Shown here: positions 8,091-18,767 of the stretch, piece after piece
Layout of the letters: each line of letters starts with the position of its first letter
How positions within the stretch are numbered: the stretch's first letter is position 1
Assembly: GCA_008501765.1 (NCBI GenBank)
Contig: QQUE01000016.1
Coordinates: forward strand, 1-58,256
DNA: 58,256 bases
Source of the DNA: Calditrichota bacterium
GTDB taxonomy: Bacteria > Zhuqueibacterota > Zhuqueibacteria > Zhuqueibacterales > Geothermadaptataceae
Direction: 5' to 3'
The notes under the pieces: model-generated
Databases searched by the model: none
What the model saw: only the letters and a program-made list of their open reading frames with translations
Told to the model about the DNA's origin: nothing
Made by a program: the position numbers and the translations under genes

Positions 8091-11000
8091 TTAATCAAAT
8101 AGCGAGTGGATATCTTCTGTGGAGAGCTGCTTGAAAAAAGCCCGGTCTGTTGAGATAAGTTGATCGACGAGTTGCCGTTTTTTCTCCTGCAATTTGAGCA
8201 CTTTTTCTTCGACGGTTCCTTCGGTAATATATTTATAAACAAAGACATGCTTGTCCTGACCGATTCGGTGTGCACGGTCCGTTGCTTGAATTTCTACGGC
8301 CGGATTCCACCAGGGATCGAAGTGAATCACATAATCGGCTGCGGTGAGATTGAGCCCGACACCACCAGCCCGCAGGCTAATGAGAAATACTTTGACCTCG
8401 TTATCCGATTGAAACTCGTTTACTTTTCTGGCTCTGTCGCGCGTCCTGCCGTCGAGGTAGCTGTACTGGATTCCCAAATTATCAAGTTTGTTTCGCATAA
8501 TGGTCAGCATTTTCACAAATTGGGAGAATACCAGAACTTTGTGCCCCTCGGCAACTATTTCTTCCAATTGTTCACTCAGGGCGTCAAATTTCCCGGAGTC
8601 ACGGTTTGTATCAGGTTCAACAAGCATGGGATGACAGGCAATTTGCCTTAGTTTCATTAACCCTTCAAGCACGGTAAACCGGGCTTTATCGATTCCTTTT
8701 TTGTCTATTTCCTGTAAAATTGTCGCCCGATAATAATCCTTCCAATAACTGTAAAATTTTTCCTGAGATTCCGTCATATTCGTGTAGCAAATTGATTCGG
8801 TTTTGGGGGGCAATTCCGAGGCGACCTGCGACTTCGTCCGGCGCAAAATAAATGGATAAATCAGCTTTTGCAAAAGTTCTGCTGCTGCGGTGCTGCCTGT
8901 TTTTTCAATCGGGGTGGCAAAATTTTCCTGAAACTGGCGCAGTGTGCCCAGGAGACCGGGGTTTAAAAAGGACATCTGTGACCATAATTCCAGGGTATTA
9001 TTTTCGATCGGTGTTCCTGTGAGAACCAAATTGTGGCGGGCGTTGAGTATTCGCGCCGCTTTGGCAGTTTGTGATCCCGGATTTTTTATGTTTTGCGATT
9101 CATCAAGAATGGCATAATTGTACTTAAAATCCTTCATAAAAGCGATGTCACGCCGCAAGGTGCCGTAGGTTGTCAAAACGATATCAAATTTTTCAAATTC
9201 CTCCGTTGAACGAGGGCGGCTCTGCCCGACTTGCTGGAATATTTTGAGTGAAGGGGCAAACCTTTCCAATTCGTGCGTCCAGTTGAACACGACGGAATTA
9301 GGCGCCACAATTAAACTGGGCTCTTTGACATTGCGGCTCTTTTCCCGTAATAAAATGGCGATCGTTTGTATGGTTTTACCCAGGCCCATATCATCAGCTA
9401 AAAAGCCCCCGAATTTATGATCCTGCAGAAAAATCAGCCAATTGTAGCCCGCATATTGATAGGGGCGAAGTTTACCATTCAAAGTCTCAAGCACCGGATG
9501 CTGCTCAATTCCCTGAAAATGGCGGAGTTTGTTGATAAAGTGAGAATAGTCAACATCGGCCAGGCGCTGATCTGCCGTTTCCGCAAGTGTGTCGATTAAA
9601 GTTACGTGAAAACGGGAAAGTCGAATCGCATCATCATTTATTTCTCCCAGGAGAAAAAGTTGGTGAAATTTTCTTTGCAGGTCTTCCGGAATATGCGCGG
9701 TGCTGCCGTCGGAAAGTGTTATAAATTGTTCGCCTTTGCGAACAGCTTTTTTTAACGCTGCCAGAGAAACGAGAATGCCATCAAAATCGAAACTCACTTT
9801 TAAATCAAACCAGTCAATAGCCGAACTGACTTCGGTACGAATTCGCGGGGTGCTTCTGCGAATGCGGAACTCTTTTAGATCAGACTCACCGAACAGCTCA
9901 AAACCCTGGGACATCAGTTCCGGTGCGGCCAAATGCAGCCACTGGATTGCTTTATCTTCCGCTATTGAAAATGTTGTATAATCCGAAGTTGTTGCGCCGC
10001 TTTTTTGCAGCAATCGCTGATAATTTTTTTCCAGATTTGGATCGCGGATAAGTTTGGTGATTTTCCGTTTAAACTGACTGGTGAGAAAAGTGACATCCTG
10101 ATAGTTATTGGAGGTAACTTCATGATTTTCATAGGCATATTTTAAAATAACCTGAAGCGAACTATTTGTTTCCTGCAAATACAATCTCGCTGTCGGAACC
10201 GCATTTATTTCAAGGATTTCAAGCTTTTTATCCAGTTGAATATTTCTGGCGAATTCCGGATTGTTGGCAACACGTTGCAAAAAAGTTGGAAATTCGGACT
10301 GCGGAACACGCAAATTAAACCGGGCTTCGACGAACGGCAGCAGCATCTCGGCATTGGTCGTCCCTTCAACTTTTATGAGCGTGCTTTCTCTTAAAATCCA
10401 AATTGGATTTTGTGTTAAAATAAAATGGGACTGTTCGATTGGCTCTTCAATTTTATTCCACAGCAAATAGGGTTTGCAGGCTACATCCCGCCCTTCAATT
10501 GTTGTTTTAAAGATGATTTTGGCAGGCTCATCGCTGATTTGAACAACAACGGCTCCATGCCCATCTTTTTCCAGAAATAAATAGCTGCCGACGAGCAAAT
10601 CAAAGAGAAAACCGCAGTCAGCGCCGAGTGCGTGTCGAATGGCAACATGATTTGTGTAGAGATATTTCATATTCATGCCGCCAAATCCGTGGTTTTCGTG
10701 CGCGAAAACATAAGACAGAATGAATCGTTCTTTGTGATTTAAAAGGAGATTTTCGGTGCCTACTTCATTAATTTTTAGCCGCGAACGCCTGCCGAGTTGC
10801 CCGTCTTTGCGCAAAAATGCCTTCTCAACTAAAAATGTCCAGTGGTTATTATTCAACTCGATATTGAAGACGGGTTTCCACAATGGTATGGAAGCGGTAA
10901 TCGGTGGCTCGACGGTGCGGACAAATTTTTCCCATTCCGGTAAGCGTCGTACCTGCGCGCGTTGGGGGCTGGCCGGTGGATTCGTTTTAAGGCTATTGTT

Positions 11001-11324
11001 GGCGTCGATTTTCATTCCAACGGCAACAATATGTTTACAGAAAATGTCATCGGAACAGGTGCAGGTAAAATCGAATCCCTCCGGTCGATTCATTATGGTG
11101 ACTTGATAGATGGAATCGCCCTTAACTCGCGCCTCGATGATGTGCTCGGTACGGCGAATAATCGTCACTTTATTATCGAGAAAATAGCTTCGGCCATGGC
11201 TGTAGGTTTTTTCTTTGGATAATTCGCGCAATCGTGCTTTTGTCAGATTTTCCCAGGACACAGTATATTTCAATTTGTGATAAAATTCCGTGAGGTTAAA
11301 GTTGCGGAGTCCGGAGTACTCCAC
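8091..11324 (-). CDS. SWIM-domain SNF2-family DNA helicase/translocase
   Basis: A 1077-residue ATP-driven DNA translocase. A SWIM zinc finger lies at the N terminus (C88-x-C90-x5-C96-x-H98). A long middle region of the bacterial SNF2-associated type follows. The SNF2 ATPase core has Walker A ADDMGLGKTIQT (about residue 640), motif II as DESQ (LDESQNIKNP, about 740) and the helicase C lobe ending in TDRAHRIGQDKHVFVYKYI (about 1018-1036). The DESQ form is a variant of DEAH/DEAQ. The start is GTG at 11324 with no clear ribosome-binding site; a GTG about 20 codons in is an alternative. Roles in repair or transcription recycling are suggested for the family but unproven for this protein. It converges on the oxidoreductase gene. 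Confidence 0.95.
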   Translation of the reverse strand: MEYSGLRNFNLTEFYHKLKYTVSWENLTKARLRELSKEKTYSHGRSYFLDNKVTIIRRTEHIIEARVKGDSIYQVTIMNRPEGFDFTCTCSDDIFCKHIVAVGMKIDANNSLKTNPPASPQRAQVRRLPEWEKFVRTVEPPITASIPLWKPVFNIELNNNHWTFLVEKAFLRKDGQLGRRSRLKINEVGTENLLLNHKERFILSYVFAHENHGFGGMNMKYLYTNHVAIRHALGADCGFLFDLLVGSYLFLEKDGHGAVVVQISDEPAKIIFKTTIEGRDVACKPYLLWNKIEEPIEQSHFILTQNPIWILRESTLIKVEGTTNAEMLLPFVEARFNLRVPQSEFPTFLQRVANNPEFARNIQLDKKLEILEINAVPTARLYLQETNSSLQVILKYAYENHEVTSNNYQDVTFLTSQFKRKITKLIRDPNLEKNYQRLLQKSGATTSDYTTFSIAEDKAIQWLHLAAPELMSQGFELFGESDLKEFRIRRSTPRIRTEVSSAIDWFDLKVSFDFDGILVSLAALKKAVRKGEQFITLSDGSTAHIPEDLQRKFHQLFLLGEINDDAIRLSRFHVTLIDTLAETADQRLADVDYSHFINKLRHFQGIEQHPVLETLNGKLRPYQYAGYNWLIFLQDHKFGGFLADDMGLGKTIQTIAILLREKSRNVKEPSLIVAPNSVVFNWTHELERFAPSLKIFQQVGQSRPRSTEEFEKFDIVLTTYGTLRRDIAFMKDFKYNYAILDESQNIKNPGSQTAKAARILNARHNLVLTGTPIENNTLELWSQMSFLNPGLLGTLRQFQENFATPIEKTGSTAAAELLQKLIYPFILRRTKSQVASELPPKTESICYTNMTESQEKFYSYWKDYYRATILQEIDKKGIDKARFTVLEGLMKLRQIACHPMLVEPDTNRDSGKFDALSEQLEEIVAEGHKVLVFSQFVKMLTIMRNKLDNLGIQYSYLDGRTRDRARKVNEFQSDNEVKVFLISLRAGGVGLNLTAADYVIHFDPWWNPAVEIQATDRAHRIGQDKHVFVYKYITEGTVEEKVLKLQEKKRQLVDQLISTDRAFFKQLSTEDIHSLFD

Positions 11325-11691: not shown

Positions 11692-14600
11692 CTAATATTG
11701 TTTTCTCATCCTGAGAACGACCCTGTTTCTTTTCCCTTTTTTGAAATGAATACCTTTCATTGTTAATCGGTAGCCTTCCTTGCTGGCGAAAACCGAAAAA
11801 TATCCATCCGGAACTTGTGAAACTATTTTACCCTCATAATCTGTTGTGCCGAGATTTATCGCATTGTCCAGCGATCTCCGGGTATTGTAAAGAATAGTGG
11901 CATCGGGGATTATTTGTTTTGTCTGGACATCAAAAACTGTAATTGAAGCGTCTGTTGGTGTCGGAATCATTTTCGCGACAACGTGCATATCCCTGGGAAA
12001 TATTTTTACGGTTTTATCCTCATAATTATTTTTTCGAATCACGGCTGTATAAGTATACGGTAAAAGCCGAACCTGAACGGGTGTAGTTTTGTTTATTTCA
12101 ATAGTCTTGCCTTGCCCGATTATCTGCACAACGGTTGCTTTGATATCCGTCTCATCATAATTTTCAAAATCCTGCGAGGAAATTGTGACATAGCGGGATA
12201 AACTCTCTCTCAAAAAATTGGATGAAGTATCAGTGATGCTCAAATTAAAACGCTGGGGGATATAGCCTGGTTTGCGCAGGGTAATAATGTGCTCCCCTTC
12301 AGTAAAAAGCAGCGTCCCGTTAATTCCTGTTATTCCAGATGATGCCGTGCCTTCATCAACGTAAATTTCCGCTCTTGACGGCACGGAATCTATTTTGATT
12401 TCTTTCCGGAATACGCCTTCCACCGCGATATGATGTTTCATTTTGTTGAGGCGCTGGAATCGCCAGAATCGTTTATCGCTGATACTTTCAACATCCTTAT
12501 GGGCGTCGAACATGAGGCCGGCGACGGTGGGGTAATTGCCTTTTTCCATGCGTATTGATATAGGTTTATCACTTATTTCCCAATGGACTGTCGTCGGTGC
12601 TTTTTCTGAAATTTTAATGTCATCTATATAAACAGTGGCACCGGAGGGTTGCGATGATAATTCCAATTGCACCTTAAATTTAAAAATGTACGGAATGCTT
12701 CCGTGTCTTTCCTTTTCACCGGTAACGTGCAATTCACCTTTGCCCAGCACATTAAATGATTTTGTTATCGGATCAAACTTGGGCAGAGTGAGTTTCAGTT
12801 TATGGACGCCGGGATCGATTTTTGCCAGCTGCAAAGGCGTCTTGTTTGGCAGTGGTTTGTCATCCAAATATACCTGTGCCCCGCTTGGAACCGTCTCGAT
12901 TCGGATCGCAGGAGGAAAAAAATAATCATAGATACCGGTGCCATAGGAGGTGAATTGTCCGAAGGTATCAACAACGGTAAAAACGATAAATAACAGCGGA
13001 ATCATCGCGCCCCCAATGATGAATGCCTTGGGATTTGAGCGTGCAGATAGCCGGACAACGTCAATAATTGTTTTTACTTCTTCACCATCTATCGGTTGGC
13101 GTCCTGCACCCGCATCATCGATTATACTATAAAAACGAGAGGCAGATTCCGATTTGGCGGTGTTGTTGGAGTTATCGATGATTTTAAAAAACAGATTTTC
13201 TTTCTTTGTGTTTTTACTTCTTCCAAAGGGGTTCAGGAATGAAAATAGCCCCGATTTTTTGGCATCCGTTTCCTTGTTTATTGGTTGTTCTTTTCCGGCA
13301 TCTTCAGTTTGAGCTGTGCCTGCCGGATCGCTTTCATTTTTCGGATCCTGCTGGTTAATAGATGATTTTGGGGATGGTGAATTTTCATCATCGAGATTGA
13401 AAAATGATTCTGATTCGTTTTTAATGACCGGATCATCCACAAGATTTTCGGGCTGAGATATGTTGTCTGGCTGATCATCCAAACGGCTTTTTTCATTCAA
13501 TGCTTCACTAAAATCTGTTTTTTCTTCAAGTGAAGTGTCAATGTCAAAAATCGCCTCGTATTCTGACGGCGCATTGTCAGGAATGATGCTTTCACGCTCA
13601 AAAATAGGTTCTTCATTTTGAAAATGTGAGACTATCTCATCCGACTCTTCTTCGACAGGATTGGTCTCATCTCGCTTGGCAGGAGCATCTGTTTCTTCTG
13701 ACTCGTTGCCTGCAAAAACATGGTTTATGTTTTCGTTATCCTTCGGAAGACGGCCGTTTTGGCCCTGATCGATTTTTTCAACCGATTCTTCCCGGGGTTC
13801 TGTCACCGTGGATTCTGCTATTTCATCCTCAGCTACGACAGTATTTTTTGATAATTTATCATTCAGCTGTGCTTCTTCTGCATTTTCTGGAGAGATTTGC
13901 ACCGGTTCAACTTCTGTATCACTATTCGGGATTGTCGCATCATCTGTCGTTAGTGCCTCCTCTTGTTCTGTGGACTCTGGGATAGCATCATCCACAAAAT
14001 TTTCACTCTCCGAATCTGTGATCGATTTAGATGCCGAATTAGGCTCACCTGCAGGAGCGGCATCTGCAGAAATTGCCTCATCATCTGCAGTCGCAATCAA
14101 TACGTGGTCTGCCACATTGGAATCTTCTGGTTCCTGTTCTTCACGGCTTTCAGGAGGGGAAACATCAATTTCTGTCTGATTTTCTTCTTCGGTATAATTG
14201 CTCTCCCGCGATATTTCCTCCGTATCGTCGCCTGCCATGGGGGTGGCGATATCCTCAGACGACTCGTCGCTATCGAGATCATCGGAATTGATGATTTCGC
14301 TACGAAATTCTCCAGTTTCAAGTTGAGAATCATTATCTAACAGGACTTCAACATATTCTTCTTCGGGATGATTCTGTTGCGGAATTTCAGTGGTTTCAAC
14401 ACTGTTTTCACCTGGCTCAGCTTCGCTTTCCAATTCATCGGCCGGAGTTTGCTCGGTTATTTCAACATAATCTTCAGAAATTAGATAGTCAATCGCATCC
14501 GTTGTTGATTCATCGATATCTTCACTAAGAATGTGCTCCGCCTGTGGCGTCTTTATTTCAACAGAATCAGTATCATTTAAATCGACATCTGCCTGTGCCT

Positions 14601-16164
14601 GTTCTTCCTCCGATGAATCCGATTGTGCATCAACTGCCCCTGTTGGTTCACAATTCTCAGAATCTTCATCTTCGCCTTGATGGTGAATATCAGGTGCCGG
14701 GGAATCCTCAAAATCTGGCAACGAAGGTTTTGGATCCCGTTTTTGTATAAGATTTTGTAAGTAGGTCAGCGCTTCATTATTTATTTTGGCATCTGCTTCA
14801 CTGACAGATTGCGGCTGATCCTGAGTAATCTTTTCCTCATCCGCAGCACTGTCCCTCGAATCTGATTCTGCGCTTTTACTCAACTCAAATTTGGTTGCAG
14901 CCTCATTTTTTGTTTGAGCCATCTCATCAGCTTCGTTTTCATCAATTTCTGCTGCAAGTTTGCTGGATTGTTTCTGCGAATCTTCCTCGCCTCTGAATTT
15001 AGTGGTGGATTCCGGAGAAATTAATTCTTCGGCTGCATCCTCATCCTTTGATGGCGAAATTTCATCAGGTTCTTCGATTGATGTGGCGGGCTCTGATATT
15101 TCATTTTCAGATTGTTCCCCGGTGGATTCATAGGTTTCGATAGCTGCACGCATTGCAGGGTTTACTCCCACGCTCTCATTTTCATCTAATGAGATTGATG
15201 CGATTGCCGAGTCTCCGTCCACCAATTGGATAAAAGCAGCTAATTCATCTGTAAAATTTGCATTTGACGCCGTTAAAATGAGTTGATGCAAGAGGTCCAT
15301 GTATAACTGGTTTGTTGCGGAATAGCGCTCATCCGGATTTTCAGCCAGGATTGTATATAAAATTGTACGTAATCTATCAGTCGCTTCTTTGGGACGATTG
15401 TCGAAGTAATCCGAATTTAGCTCAAAAACCGAATTGATTTGCGAAGCAGGCGCACTGACGGGATTGAAGCGTTGACCTGACAAAAACTCTAAAAATAGAA
15501 TTCCTAATGCGTAGAGATCAGCACGAAAATCAACGACAGCGTTGCTATCTGAATATTCCGGAGCAAGCCGTGAATAAAATAGTGACTTGTGAAGTTCTTG
15601 TTTTTTATCAATATATTGATAGCGAATCGGAGACAATTCAACGCCGCGAATTTTGATTTTCCCTTCAAGCGAGATAAAAATATTTTCAGCGGAAAGACCA
15701 TGAAAAACACTATCTGGGGCCAAACTATCTTTCTGTGAACGTCTTGAGTGGATATAATCCAGGCCGGTACAAATTTCTGTGATTATGAAGGAGGCAAGAT
15801 GAATAGGTATCTTCGTATTGGTGCGAATAAAATAATCGAAAAGAAAATCAAGCGTGTAGCCATTATTGTATTCACTGATAAAAGCAGGCTCATTATTCTC
15901 TGTGCGCGCTACTTCGATAAAACGTGTGATATTGTGATGCTTGAATTCCTTGTAAATTTCGGTAGTTAGGTCCAGCCTTTGTGTTGTATCCTCGCCGTTT
16001 AGCAAGTCTGGCGACAAGAATTTTGCTTCGACGAAATTGTTTTCGCTATTATTGGAAGCGAGATAACTATGGCTTATAAAATCGTGCGCAAATTCCTGAT
16101 GAATTTTATATTTTTGCGAAAAGTCAGGGCTGGTGTTTGGCAATGTTGTGTGCTCCCCGCTCAA
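11692..16164 (-). CDS. Transmembrane Ser/Thr pseudokinase with acidic linker and PEGA repeats
   Basis: A 1490-residue protein. Residues ~20-300 form a protein-kinase fold: a lysine equivalent to VAIK (VEAKFL, Lys48), an APE motif (APEY, 201-204), the alpha-F segment FRADLYALGILFLEFLSG and PDERYSA (277-283). Catalytic parts are lost: the HRD loop reads HGLSAENIFIS with the Asp deleted (155-165), and DFG is replaced by GVE (174-176). A roughly 700-residue linker (about 330-1040) is extremely rich in Glu, Asp, Ser and Thr and probably disordered. One membrane helix follows (about 1045-1067). The C-terminal part has at least three PEGA-type modules (VPSGAQVYLDD, QPSGATVYIDD, VPSRAEIYVDE) and a final carboxypeptidase-regulatory-like module. 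Likely topology is pseudokinase in the cytoplasm and PEGA in the periplasm. No catalytic activity is expected; a scaffold or sensor role is inferred. Confidence 0.88.
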   Translation of the reverse strand: MSGEHTTLPNTSPDFSQKYKIHQEFAHDFISHSYLASNNSENNFVEAKFLSPDLLNGEDTTQRLDLTTEIYKEFKHHNITRFIEVARTENNEPAFISEYNNGYTLDFLFDYFIRTNTKIPIHLASFIITEICTGLDYIHSRRSQKDSLAPDSVFHGLSAENIFISLEGKIKIRGVELSPIRYQYIDKKQELHKSLFYSRLAPEYSDSNAVVDFRADLYALGILFLEFLSGQRFNPVSAPASQINSVFELNSDYFDNRPKEATDRLRTILYTILAENPDERYSATNQLYMDLLHQLILTASNANFTDELAAFIQLVDGDSAIASISLDENESVGVNPAMRAAIETYESTGEQSENEISEPATSIEEPDEISPSKDEDAAEELISPESTTKFRGEEDSQKQSSKLAAEIDENEADEMAQTKNEAATKFELSKSAESDSRDSAADEEKITQDQPQSVSEADAKINNEALTYLQNLIQKRDPKPSLPDFEDSPAPDIHHQGEDEDSENCEPTGAVDAQSDSSEEEQAQADVDLNDTDSVEIKTPQAEHILSEDIDESTTDAIDYLISEDYVEITEQTPADELESEAEPGENSVETTEIPQQNHPEEEYVEVLLDNDSQLETGEFRSEIINSDDLDSDESSEDIATPMAGDDTEEISRESNYTEEENQTEIDVSPPESREEQEPEDSNVADHVLIATADDEAISADAAPAGEPNSASKSITDSESENFVDDAIPESTEQEEALTTDDATIPNSDTEVEPVQISPENAEEAQLNDKLSKNTVVAEDEIAESTVTEPREESVEKIDQGQNGRLPKDNENINHVFAGNESEETDAPAKRDETNPVEEESDEIVSHFQNEEPIFERESIIPDNAPSEYEAIFDIDTSLEEKTDFSEALNEKSRLDDQPDNISQPENLVDDPVIKNESESFFNLDDENSPSPKSSINQQDPKNESDPAGTAQTEDAGKEQPINKETDAKKSGLFSFLNPFGRSKNTKKENLFFKIIDNSNNTAKSESASRFYSIIDDAGAGRQPIDGEEVKTIIDVVRLSARSNPKAFIIGGAMIPLLFIVFTVVDTFGQFTSYGTGIYDYFFPPAIRIETVPSGAQVYLDDKPLPNKTPLQLAKIDPGVHKLKLTLPKFDPITKSFNVLGKGELHVTGEKERHGSIPYIFKFKVQLELSSQPSGATVYIDDIKISEKAPTTVHWEISDKPISIRMEKGNYPTVAGLMFDAHKDVESISDKRFWRFQRLNKMKHHIAVEGVFRKEIKIDSVPSRAEIYVDEGTASSGITGINGTLLFTEGEHIITLRKPGYIPQRFNLSITDTSSNFLRESLSRYVTISSQDFENYDETDIKATVVQIIGQGKTIEINKTTPVQVRLLPYTYTAVIRKNNYEDKTVKIFPRDMHVVAKMIPTPTDASITVFDVQTKQIIPDATILYNTRRSLDNAINLGTTDYEGKIVSQVPDGYFSVFASKEGYRLTMKGIHFKKGKRNRVVLRMRKQY

Positions 16165-16676: not shown

Positions 16677-17123
16677 ATGAAAGAAAAAGATCAAAATTCT
16701 TCAGGCCCGGTCAAAGAGATCACGTTGAATGATGTTTGTAGAGAAATCCGTGATGGCCAGGATGCCATACAAGCCTGTGCAGTCCTCGATTTGCAAAGCG
16801 GACTTGTGCTCGGAGTCAGTCACAAATTATCGGGATTTAATGACGCTTATGTTGAAGCCATAGCGGCTGCCGCTGTCGATTTATTTCGCGGTCCGACAGT
16901 CAATGCGGTTGAACATCTTCTTGGTGGGCATTTTGGCAAGAAGGTTGAAAATGCTATAAATGAACTTCAGGTTACAACCAACGATGGATTTACTTTTCTC
17001 AGTGTGGTTCCGGAAAAACGGAATGCACTCTTTCTTATGGCTACCGACAAGTCTATTACTTTGGGATTGGGATGGACATTATTGCGGGCTAATTTAAACA
17101 AAATCTCGCCGCTCTGTCCGTGA
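16677..17123 (+). CDS. Roadblock/LC7-like small protein
   Basis: A 148-residue soluble protein. Residues ~35-145 show an alternating beta/alpha pattern like roadblock/LC7 (MglB-like) domains: a first strand pair CAVLDLQSGLVLGVSHKL, a long helix (DAYVEAIAAAAVDLFRG), a strand with FTFLSVVPEKRNALFLMATD, and a final helix SITLGLGWTLLRANLNKI. Such domains dimerise and regulate small GTPases or act as scaffolds. The match is by pattern, not by an invariant motif, so it is tentative. The start at 16677 follows GAGGAAG (16668-16674). It is divergent from the pseudokinase/PEGA gene, and a terminator shared with the convergent gene follows. Confidence 0.6.
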   Translation: MKEKDQNSSGPVKEITLNDVCREIRDGQDAIQACAVLDLQSGLVLGVSHKLSGFNDAYVEAIAAAAVDLFRGPTVNAVEHLLGGHFGKKVENAINELQVTTNDGFTFLSVVPEKRNALFLMATDKSITLGLGWTLLRANLNKISPLCP

Positions 17124-17157: not shown

Positions 17158-17210
17158 GATGCGCGTCTTTTCATATTTAGAAGAATATTTAAAGATGCGC
17201 GTTTTCATTT
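17158..17210. terminator. Bidirectional terminator between convergent genes
   Basis: GATGCGCGTCTTT (17158-17170) pairs with AAAGATGCGCGTT (17191-17203) with two G-U wobbles, flanked by T-rich DNA on the + side (GTTTTCATTTTTG) and A/T-rich DNA on the other. It ends at the stop codon of the convergent gene at 17205. Confidence 0.65.
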
Positions 17211-18767
17211 TTGATCTCCGCTGAATTCATTCCTTAAAAGTACATGCAGCCCATTTGATTTTCCCATCCACTTTAACTTGTTATCCTCATATTGAATAAT
17301 GACGTCAGCTCGATTATCAGCGTTTAGATCCGTTGCCTGGACGAGCGTGCCGTCTTGTGGTAAGACTATCCGGTACGTGCCTTTGGATTTTGGGTTGATA
17401 ACATGCTTTCGGTCCCCCCAATAGAGCAGCAATTTTTCCTCATCAGCGCTGGTAAGAATATCTTTGTAGCCATCATTATTGAAGTCTGCAATTTCATAAA
17501 TCGGCGATGCTGCTCCTCCGCGAAATGAAAAACGTACTGTAATATCGATTTTCTGCTGCGCTTCGAGCGTAAAGCCATTTTTAGCTTGCATTAAAAACAA
17601 CTGCGCTTCAAAATCCACGGAGCGCGTCAAGAGCATTTTTATGATGCTCGTCACGCCGATTTTTATCGTCGGGATCAGAAAGTCCTGTCGGCCATCGTTA
17701 TTAAAATCAAAGATATCGATCACCATTTGCGTCCCATTAGGCTTGATTATAAAGTCGGGATTTTCCGCGAAGAAATAAGTGCCCTGCGCTGTTTTTTTGC
17801 CCAGAAACAGGCTTGTTTTGGTTTCCGGATTAATCAAACTGTTTTTCGTAGAAATTGAAGCGGAAACGATATCGAGAAGGCTGTCACCGTCGATGTCGAG
17901 CAAGCGCATAAAAAACTGCCGTTCATTTTGGTCGTCAAGGTGGGTGCGCATTATCTTGGCGCCATTCCAGATATCGCCGTGTGCCAACGGAATTGAATGA
18001 TCGGCCCGGTGCGAAAAACTGCCGTCGGTTTGCTGTAGATAGGTTTTGAGGCTGTCCTTGTATATGGCAATTATATCATCATGGTTGTCTGCGTTAAAAT
18101 CTTTTCGGAGCAGGTAGGGTGCTGAATAAACAGCCCCGGCTTTAGCGCCGACCGAAAACCGTGGATTATAATATGAAAATTGCCTGGATTGGGGGCGGAG
18201 ATCGAGCTTGTTTTCCTGCCATCGAGCAAAATTTTTCTGGCCCAATAAAATTGTGGTTCCGGAAAATTGGGGGATAAAAATATCAGCTCGCCCATCTGAA
18301 TTTAGATCGGTAACAAAATTCCAAAGCTGGATTTTAGAATTATCGGGATACATAAAGATTGATGAAATATCTTTAAATTTTTGAGGTGCCGACGCATATC
18401 CGCTGTCGCTGAGTGTGTGGTAAAAAATACCACCGCGGCCAAAATAAATGAGTTCGAGCCCGGGTGACTCAGAAATATCGCCAAAATCAAGGAGTGCTAA
18501 ATCGACGGGCAGGGTAAAAACCTGATTTGGGTATTCCGGGAAACCATTTTCAAGTTGAAAATAGAGGGCGAATTTGCGGTGGTTTTTATCTTTATCAATA
18601 TAAAACAGGGCGAGGTCTTTCATGCCGTCTGCGTCGAGATCTTCAGCGTGAATTGAGACTATTTTTCCGTCGCATGAAAGAAAATAGCTTTTAAAAAGAT
18701 CTTCCGCCGCCGCTAAATTTAGCCACAGCAGAAAGGTCAGAAAACCAGTCGAAGTCCATATTTTCAT
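17205..18767 (-). CDS. Secreted FG-GAP/VCBS-repeat protein
   Basis: A 520-residue exported protein with an N-terminal signal peptide (about 1-21, hydrophobic FLTFLLWLNLAAA). At least seven calcium-binding-type FG-GAP repeats are recognisable: DLDADGMKDLAL, DLNSDGRADIFI, DFNADNHDDIIA, DIDGDSLLDIVS, DFNNDGRQDFLI, DFNNDGYKDILT and DLNADNRADVII. These form a beta-propeller like integrin alpha chains and usually bind Ca2+ and mediate adhesion or carbohydrate binding. No catalytic domain or C-terminal sorting signal is evident. It starts 6 nt after the bshA stop, so it is cotranscribed with bshA, although no functional link is apparent. Confidence 0.85.
   Translation of the reverse strand: MKIWTSTGFLTFLLWLNLAAAEDLFKSYFLSCDGKIVSIHAEDLDADGMKDLALFYIDKDKNHRKFALYFQLENGFPEYPNQVFTLPVDLALLDFGDISESPGLELIYFGRGGIFYHTLSDSGYASAPQKFKDISSIFMYPDNSKIQLWNFVTDLNSDGRADIFIPQFSGTTILLGQKNFARWQENKLDLRPQSRQFSYYNPRFSVGAKAGAVYSAPYLLRKDFNADNHDDIIAIYKDSLKTYLQQTDGSFSHRADHSIPLAHGDIWNGAKIMRTHLDDQNERQFFMRLLDIDGDSLLDIVSASISTKNSLINPETKTSLFLGKKTAQGTYFFAENPDFIIKPNGTQMVIDIFDFNNDGRQDFLIPTIKIGVTSIIKMLLTRSVDFEAQLFLMQAKNGFTLEAQQKIDITVRFSFRGGAASPIYEIADFNNDGYKDILTSADEEKLLLYWGDRKHVINPKSKGTYRIVLPQDGTLVQATDLNADNRADVIIQYEDNKLKWMGKSNGLHVLLRNEFSGDQK

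Follow-up and report, generated by a model that had tools for sequence, protein, structure and literature searches.

The 58,256-nucleotide stretch analyzed here (the window; positions 1 to 58,256 of contig QQUE01000016.1, assembly GCA_008501765.1, from a Calditrichota bacterium) encodes a membrane protein with a kinase-like domain, a very long acidic linker, a transmembrane (TM) helix and PEGA domains. Our comparisons identify it as a probable pseudokinase, the dead duplicate of a PEGA-domain membrane kinase whose active sister persists in the same genome. The dead copy has departed from the gene-neighborhood typical of the active kinases, and a small, probably roadblock-like gene is found in exactly those genomes that possess it. 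We propose, with a probability of about one half, that the dead duplicate functions as a non-catalytic membrane scaffold or co-receptor together with this roadblock-like partner.

Loss of catalytic residues in a predicted kinase fold

The gene and the parts of it that bear on catalysis are as follows:

11692..16143, minus strand: pseudokinase-PEGA gene (the open frame extends to 16164, with the TTG at 16143 as its probable start)
15226..16110, minus strand: kinase-like domain, residues 19-313 (Pfam Pkinase, AlphaFold2, Foldseek)
15682..15705, minus strand: degenerate catalytic loop FHGLSAEN, residues 154-161 (HRD Asp replaced by Gly156)
15628..15645, minus strand: degenerate DFG motif, GVELSP, residues 174-179 (DFG Gly replaced by Glu in 4/4)

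A sequence-only reading of this gene had recognized a kinase fold by its APE, alpha-F and PDERY landmarks, together with a deleted HRD aspartate and a DFG motif altered to GVE. The landmarks are indeed present (APE at 201), and Pfam detects a Pkinase domain at residues 34-287 (E 2e-17, 63.9 bits against a cut-off of 31.7). The structural comparison with active kinases which that reading had advised points the same way: AlphaFold2, given 17 aligned sequences, confidently predicts a kinase fold (pLDDT 82, pTM 0.85), and in Foldseek the nearest solved structures are PknB kinases, with Mycobacterium tuberculosis PknB as the best match. The supposed deletion, however, is ruled out by the family alignment: FHGLSAEN lies without a gap over the HQDISPSN of 41 active relatives from related genomes, and hence the HRD Asp has been substituted rather than deleted, the triad H-Q/R-D having become F-H-G (H154 to F, R/Q155 to H, D156 to G). 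Position 156 is Asp in 41/41 active homologues and Gly in all four clade members with a readable loop, which answers for two genera the question, raised in the same reading, of whether the loss is conserved in relatives. Another Asp taking over the catalytic position was named there as one finding that would overturn the claim; none does so, and the nearest candidate, D151, is not conserved within the clade (D/D/T/G). In the active homologues (locus L051 and others) the loop reads HQDISPSN, and the Lys of the usual HRDxKxxN is Ser family-wide.

The change of DFG to GVE is correct for the window protein. Across the four dead copies the motif reads GVE, GVE, SVE and DFE, the third residue being Glu in every one of them and Gly in all other members. 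The window protein also has neither a glycine-rich loop nor the alpha-C Glu, but the beta3 Lys48 is retained (K/R/K/K over the clade, with Arg in G001), and the catalytic-loop Asn161 is kept in the window. Among the HRD Asp, the DFG Asp, the glycine-rich loop and the Lys-Glu bridge which characterize active Ser/Thr kinases, only Lys48 remains. Pseudokinases have been defined as lacking at least one of the beta3 Lys, HRD Asp and DFG Asp (PMC12599244), a definition under which the window clade falls; we infer that the window protein is a transmembrane pseudokinase without phosphotransfer activity.

Gene structure and predicted membrane topology

11695..12909, minus strand: part beyond the membrane helix, in which Pfam detects three PEGA domains and which has a beta domain at its C-terminus (74% identity to G001)
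12961..13035, minus strand: TM helix, residues ~1044-1068 (hydropathy maximum 2.2)
13078..15225, minus strand: acidic linker of 716 residues, 314-1029 (by composition)

The minus-strand open reading frame 11692-16164 runs uninterrupted for 1490 codons. A TTG at 16143, seven codons into the frame and preceded by GGGGAG, would give a product of 1483 amino acids (aa), and in the G001 and G002 orthologues the earliest in-frame start aligns with the Leu encoded by this TTG, which is probably the conserved start. Kinase and PEGA domains are the only ones detected by Pfam, the latter as three stretches (E 1e-22 over the whole protein). There is a single strongly hydrophobic stretch in the entire protein, at about residues 1045-1069, and the TIID with a following Arg/Ser directly before the TM helix is invariant across the PEGA kinase family. 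As Arg and Lys lie on the N-terminal side of this helix (KTIIDVVRLSARSNPK), the positive-inside rule would place the kinase-like part in the cytoplasm and the PEGA part outside it as an exported region. The homologous PEGA region after the TM helix and the kinase-like domain before it make the protein a member of the family of PEGA-domain membrane kinases of this class. The picture drawn from the sequence alone, that of a pseudokinase which spans the membrane and carries PEGA modules beyond it, agrees with the one TM helix, the three PEGA domains and the lost catalytic residues.

Distribution and evolutionary constraint

We surveyed 63 genomes of the class. The dead copy is found in five of these, distributed over two genera of one family within the uncultured candidate division KSB1/Calditrichaeota: besides the window genome (G000) they are G001 and G002 of the same genus, and in the second genus G006 (contig C713) and G004, where the gene is divided between contigs C425 and C253. 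In a tree of the PEGA region four dead copies form one clade (support 99/96), and the kinase-domain tree recovers the same clade with a very long stem. The PEGA-region tree places the duplication inside the family (support 85/88). It does not settle the order of duplication within it: the grouping of the dead copies with the active copies of g1 and g3 has support of 61/58, and their grouping with g2 has an AU p of 0.47.

Between G000 and G001 the PEGA region is similarly conserved in the dead copy (74% identity) and in the active paralogue (77%), the kinase domain less so in the dead copy (63% versus 91%), and the linker of the dead copy retains only 30% identity. Within the kinase domain the N-lobe is the best conserved part of the active proteins (100% between G000 and G001) and among the least conserved parts in the dead clade (42-56%), where the C-terminal extension of the kinase-like domain is instead the most conserved portion (83-91%). 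This pattern is best read as that of a domain retained for its surface and not for binding ATP. As synonymous divergence (dS) is saturated, selection was judged from nonsynonymous divergence (dN) and codon-position differences, and only these are reported; dN is 0.27 for the kinase-like domain against 0.77 for the linker. By these measures the dead copy is evidently under purifying selection. Since the catalytic loss is also conserved over two genera, the earlier suggestion that this protein acts as a scaffold or sensor is a reasonable one.

Departure from the ancestral operon and association with a probable roadblock-like gene

The active sister in the window genome (G000:C14:205831-208941, locus L051) shares with the dead copy the order of kinase domain, acidic linker, TM helix and PEGA region, the two being 28% identical in the kinase domain and 40% in the PEGA region. 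Unlike the dead copy, it has intact HxD and DFG motifs, a shorter linker and FHA (and PP2C) neighbors, and its locus is without the divergent roadblock-like gene. Active homologues generally adjoin a gene for an FHA and FG-GAP/beta-propeller protein, and in most cases also a PP2C phosphatase gene (Pfam assignments). An FHA homologue is present at the 41 active loci examined, though at one of them (L091) some 5 kb separate it from the kinase gene; at the pseudokinase loci there is none at any. By this comparison of gene-neighborhoods, the dead copy is one that has departed from the ancestral FHA operon. At L051:10784-19501 (G000:C14) genes for FHA/beta-propeller, PP2C and TPR proteins come after the active PEGA kinase; this module is conserved and widespread in the class, and we found no description of it in the open literature searched. 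In family f7 (L061-L068) some genomes have three PEGA kinases, which belong to different subclades and each have an FHA gene close by.

The pseudokinase gene is instead accompanied by the following gene:

16677..17123, plus strand: probable roadblock/LC7-like partner gene, 148 aa from a conserved Met (frame open from 16626; divergent from the pseudokinase)

Among the 63 genomes this gene is confined to the five that have the pseudokinase, and all five possess it. It is divergently oriented to the dead copy in G000, G001, G004 and G006, and in G002 the two are on separate contigs. Searches of Pfam, NCBIfam and PDB sequences with the partner protein returned nothing convincing. Nevertheless, a weak AlphaFold2 model (two sequences, pLDDT 44) retrieved with Foldseek PDB matches that are nearly all roadblock/LC7 proteins, including LAMTOR, MP1-p14 and MglB (best E 0.007, TM-score about 0.3), and a profile alignment with the roadblock proteins of the class extends over 111 columns (E 0.011). 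These two lines make it probable that the partner is roadblock-like.

An FG-GAP repeat protein, whose repeat type recalls that of the FHA/FG-GAP protein of the operon, adjoins the partner gene (17205-18767, minus strand) and is not found at that place in G001. Just downstream of the pseudokinase lies a SNF2 helicase with a SWIM-like match (8091-11324, minus strand), which is the neighbor in G001 and G002 as well; in the second genus its place is taken by an AcrB-type transporter.

The linker and its conserved motifs

14737..14778, minus strand: helix-like linker motif NEALTYLQNLIQKR, residues 463-476 (best conserved linker block of the dead clade)
13114..13137, minus strand: juxtamembrane motif RFYSIIDD, residues 1010-1017 (from comparison with active kinases)

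The linker had been singled out as extraordinarily long and acidic. Its length holds up as exceptional and its acidity is real (28% Asp and Glu, 6.6% Lys and Arg, net charge -154), but shorter linkers, most of them likewise acidic, are present in the active homologues. On present comparisons a long acidic linker is a trait of the family, and it is the unusual length, 525-716 aa against 73-283 aa in the active proteins, that distinguishes the dead clade. No tandem repeats were found in the window linker, and an origin by repeat expansion was rejected on this ground.

The helix-like motif has the consensus NEALxYLQxLxxxR in the dead clade. It scores 63-70 within the genus against best scores of 4-26 in the linkers of active homologues, from which it is absent, and the match between G002 and the second genus is significant. 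Immediately ahead of the TM helix the dead clade has an aromatic motif (FYSII, FYSFV or FYKVI), which is also present in most of the active kinases that occur as single copies in close families. It is missing from the active sisters in g1 and g3, the two genera with both copies. That catalysis has been lost in one copy and the FYSII-type motif in the other suggests a division of labor between them subsequent to the duplication.

Proposed function and alternatives

The best clues to function come jointly from three things that the gene's own sequence does not reveal: the active sister, the abandoned FHA/PP2C operon and the co-occurring roadblock-like gene. We propose that the ancestor was an envelope kinase, with a cytoplasmic kinase domain, an acidic linker, one TM helix and a PEGA ectodomain, whose partners, a phosphothreonine reader of the FHA type and a PP2C phosphatase, were encoded next to it. 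Upon duplication in one KSB1 family, one copy would have remained the operon kinase; the other would have left the operon, its motifs for ATP binding and catalysis being lost and its linker growing to two or three times its length, and become linked to the small roadblock-like gene. The PEGA ectodomains of the dead copy and of its active sister may both sense one kind of envelope state, and the dead kinase domain would offer a folded docking or dimerization surface via its C-lobe. The long disordered linker would then extend into the cytoplasm and hold a roadblock-like dimer by the conserved helix motif. Both halves of this proposal have precedents: binding of a roadblock dimer by a helix that ends a disordered region has been measured for RomR and MglC (PMC12719032), and MviN with FhaA exemplifies a bacterial membrane pseudokinase scaffold (PMC12599244). 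A more specific version, in which the disordered arm and helix hold the protein's own roadblock dimer at the membrane and thereby join the kinase-FHA-phosphatase circuit to that of MglA-type GTPases, appears unlikely to us.

Several observations weigh against the proposed scaffold. The g3 member retains the DFG Asp (as DFE), which the other three dead copies have lost, and the kept Lys48 leaves room for some ligand binding. Comparing the linker motif of the window directly with the g3 orthologue gives a non-significant score of 36 against a shuffled maximum of 47. None of the five partner proteins matches any Pfam family, PF03259 included, at E 10, and the roadblock assignment depends on the weak model and the profile alignment with E 0.011; the co-occurrence of the partner with the dead copy might moreover reflect a single evolutionary event. 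The reading as a whole is founded on sequences and predicted structures.

The main rival is a phospho-scaffold resembling MviN, in which the active sister phosphorylates the linker or domain of the dead copy. The dead copy would then bring in the FHA protein encoded in the operon, and the roadblock-like gene would be a mere neighbor. The presence in the same genome of an active sister with adjoining FHA and PP2C genes, the richness of the linker in Ser, Thr, Asp and Glu, and the MviN precedent itself (PMC12599244) speak for it. However, the linkers have no more FHA-type sites (TxxD, TxxE and Txx[ILV]) than shuffled sequences do (a weak test), which also counts against a linker that presents many Thr sites for FHA binding, and it would go unexplained why the roadblock-like gene so strictly co-occurs with the dead copy; we regard this explanation as rather improbable, at about one in four. 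The dead kinase might alternatively hold the roadblock-like protein at the membrane in order to regulate or position an MglA-type GTPase, as an input to a polarity system. Roadblock proteins such as MglB are published regulators of MglA, and the window genome does have, at L127:1363-2901 (G000:C8), a PF03259 roadblock gene followed by an MglA-like GTPase gene (Pfam Arf) and then by a gene of 138 aa which, on visual inspection, resembles a roadblock gene. Yet PF03259 roadblock genes are found in genomes without the pseudokinase too (40/40 genomes), and the GTPase gene is elsewhere in the genome with no physical link seen, which makes such an input decidedly unlikely.

Two further explanations dispense with a scaffold altogether. 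A rearranged active site could support another reaction, such as a different nucleotidyl transfer, and such activities are known in other kinase-fold proteins (PMC12599244); the beta3 Lys (Arg in G001) and the catalytic-loop Asn are kept in three members of the genus. With the glycine-rich loop, the alpha-C Glu, the HRD Asp and, in g1, the DFG Asp all lost, and the nucleotide lobe among the least conserved portions, a remaining enzyme is very improbable. Hardly any more credible, and if anything the least so, is a decaying duplicate devoid of function: its kinase-like domain does evolve faster than that of the active paralogue, but three genomes of the window's genus have unbroken frames, as does the second genus across split contigs, the PEGA part is constrained as in the active copy, dN is far lower in the kinase-like domain than in the linker, and both the partner gene and the linker motif are conserved.

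Comparison with known systems

Bacterial pseudokinases and PEGA-domain kinases are both known kinds of protein, the latter also from the architectures seen here. In the open literature searched we found no paper on PEGA kinases or PEGA pseudokinases, and a review of bacterial pseudokinase families, which are recognized by sequence and scarcely studied experimentally, makes no mention of PEGA (PMC12599244). In the present case an active sister is encoded elsewhere in the genome, the two copies are opposites in the parts that they retain and lose, and a partner gene follows the dead copy over two genera. Because of the sister, the opposite losses and the partner gene, the role of a kinase fold after the loss of catalysis becomes directly testable with a defined protein pair and motif.

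The families described in that review (GLW, ActPs1-3, CP1, DYD and DLHK) are, like the dead copy, conserved bacterial kinase folds without catalytic motifs, and in several of them a TM segment follows the kinase domain; compared by their published descriptions, they differ in the motifs lost and the domains attached (PMC12599244). MviN of M. tuberculosis, of the ActPs3 family, resembles the dead copy as a membrane protein whose dead kinase domain serves as a scaffold, but the hallmark activation-loop deletion of ActPs3 and the architecture of MviN, for which no PEGA is mentioned, set them apart (PMC12599244). GLW proteins have GLW in place of HRD and Leu or Trp for the beta3 Lys (PMC12599244); the dead copy, with FHG and Lys48 kept, is not a member. 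ActPs2 combines a beta3 Lys to Arg change, an HRD Asp to Asn change and an activation-loop insertion of ~250 aa, whereas the window protein keeps the Lys, has Gly for the Asp and lacks any large insertion in the stretch from GVE (174) to APE (201). CP1 proteins are fused to COG3899 and are without a TM segment, unlike the window protein with its TM helix and only kinase and PEGA domains in Pfam. A parallel to the proposed system is the RomR-MglC-MglB system of Myxococcus xanthus, which likewise combines a signaling domain, a long disordered region and a roadblock-binding helix (PMC12719032). RomR differs in having an N-terminal receiver domain and a C-terminal binding helix rather than PEGA domains, and its binding has been measured (PMC12719032), where that of the dead PEGA kinase is here proposed.

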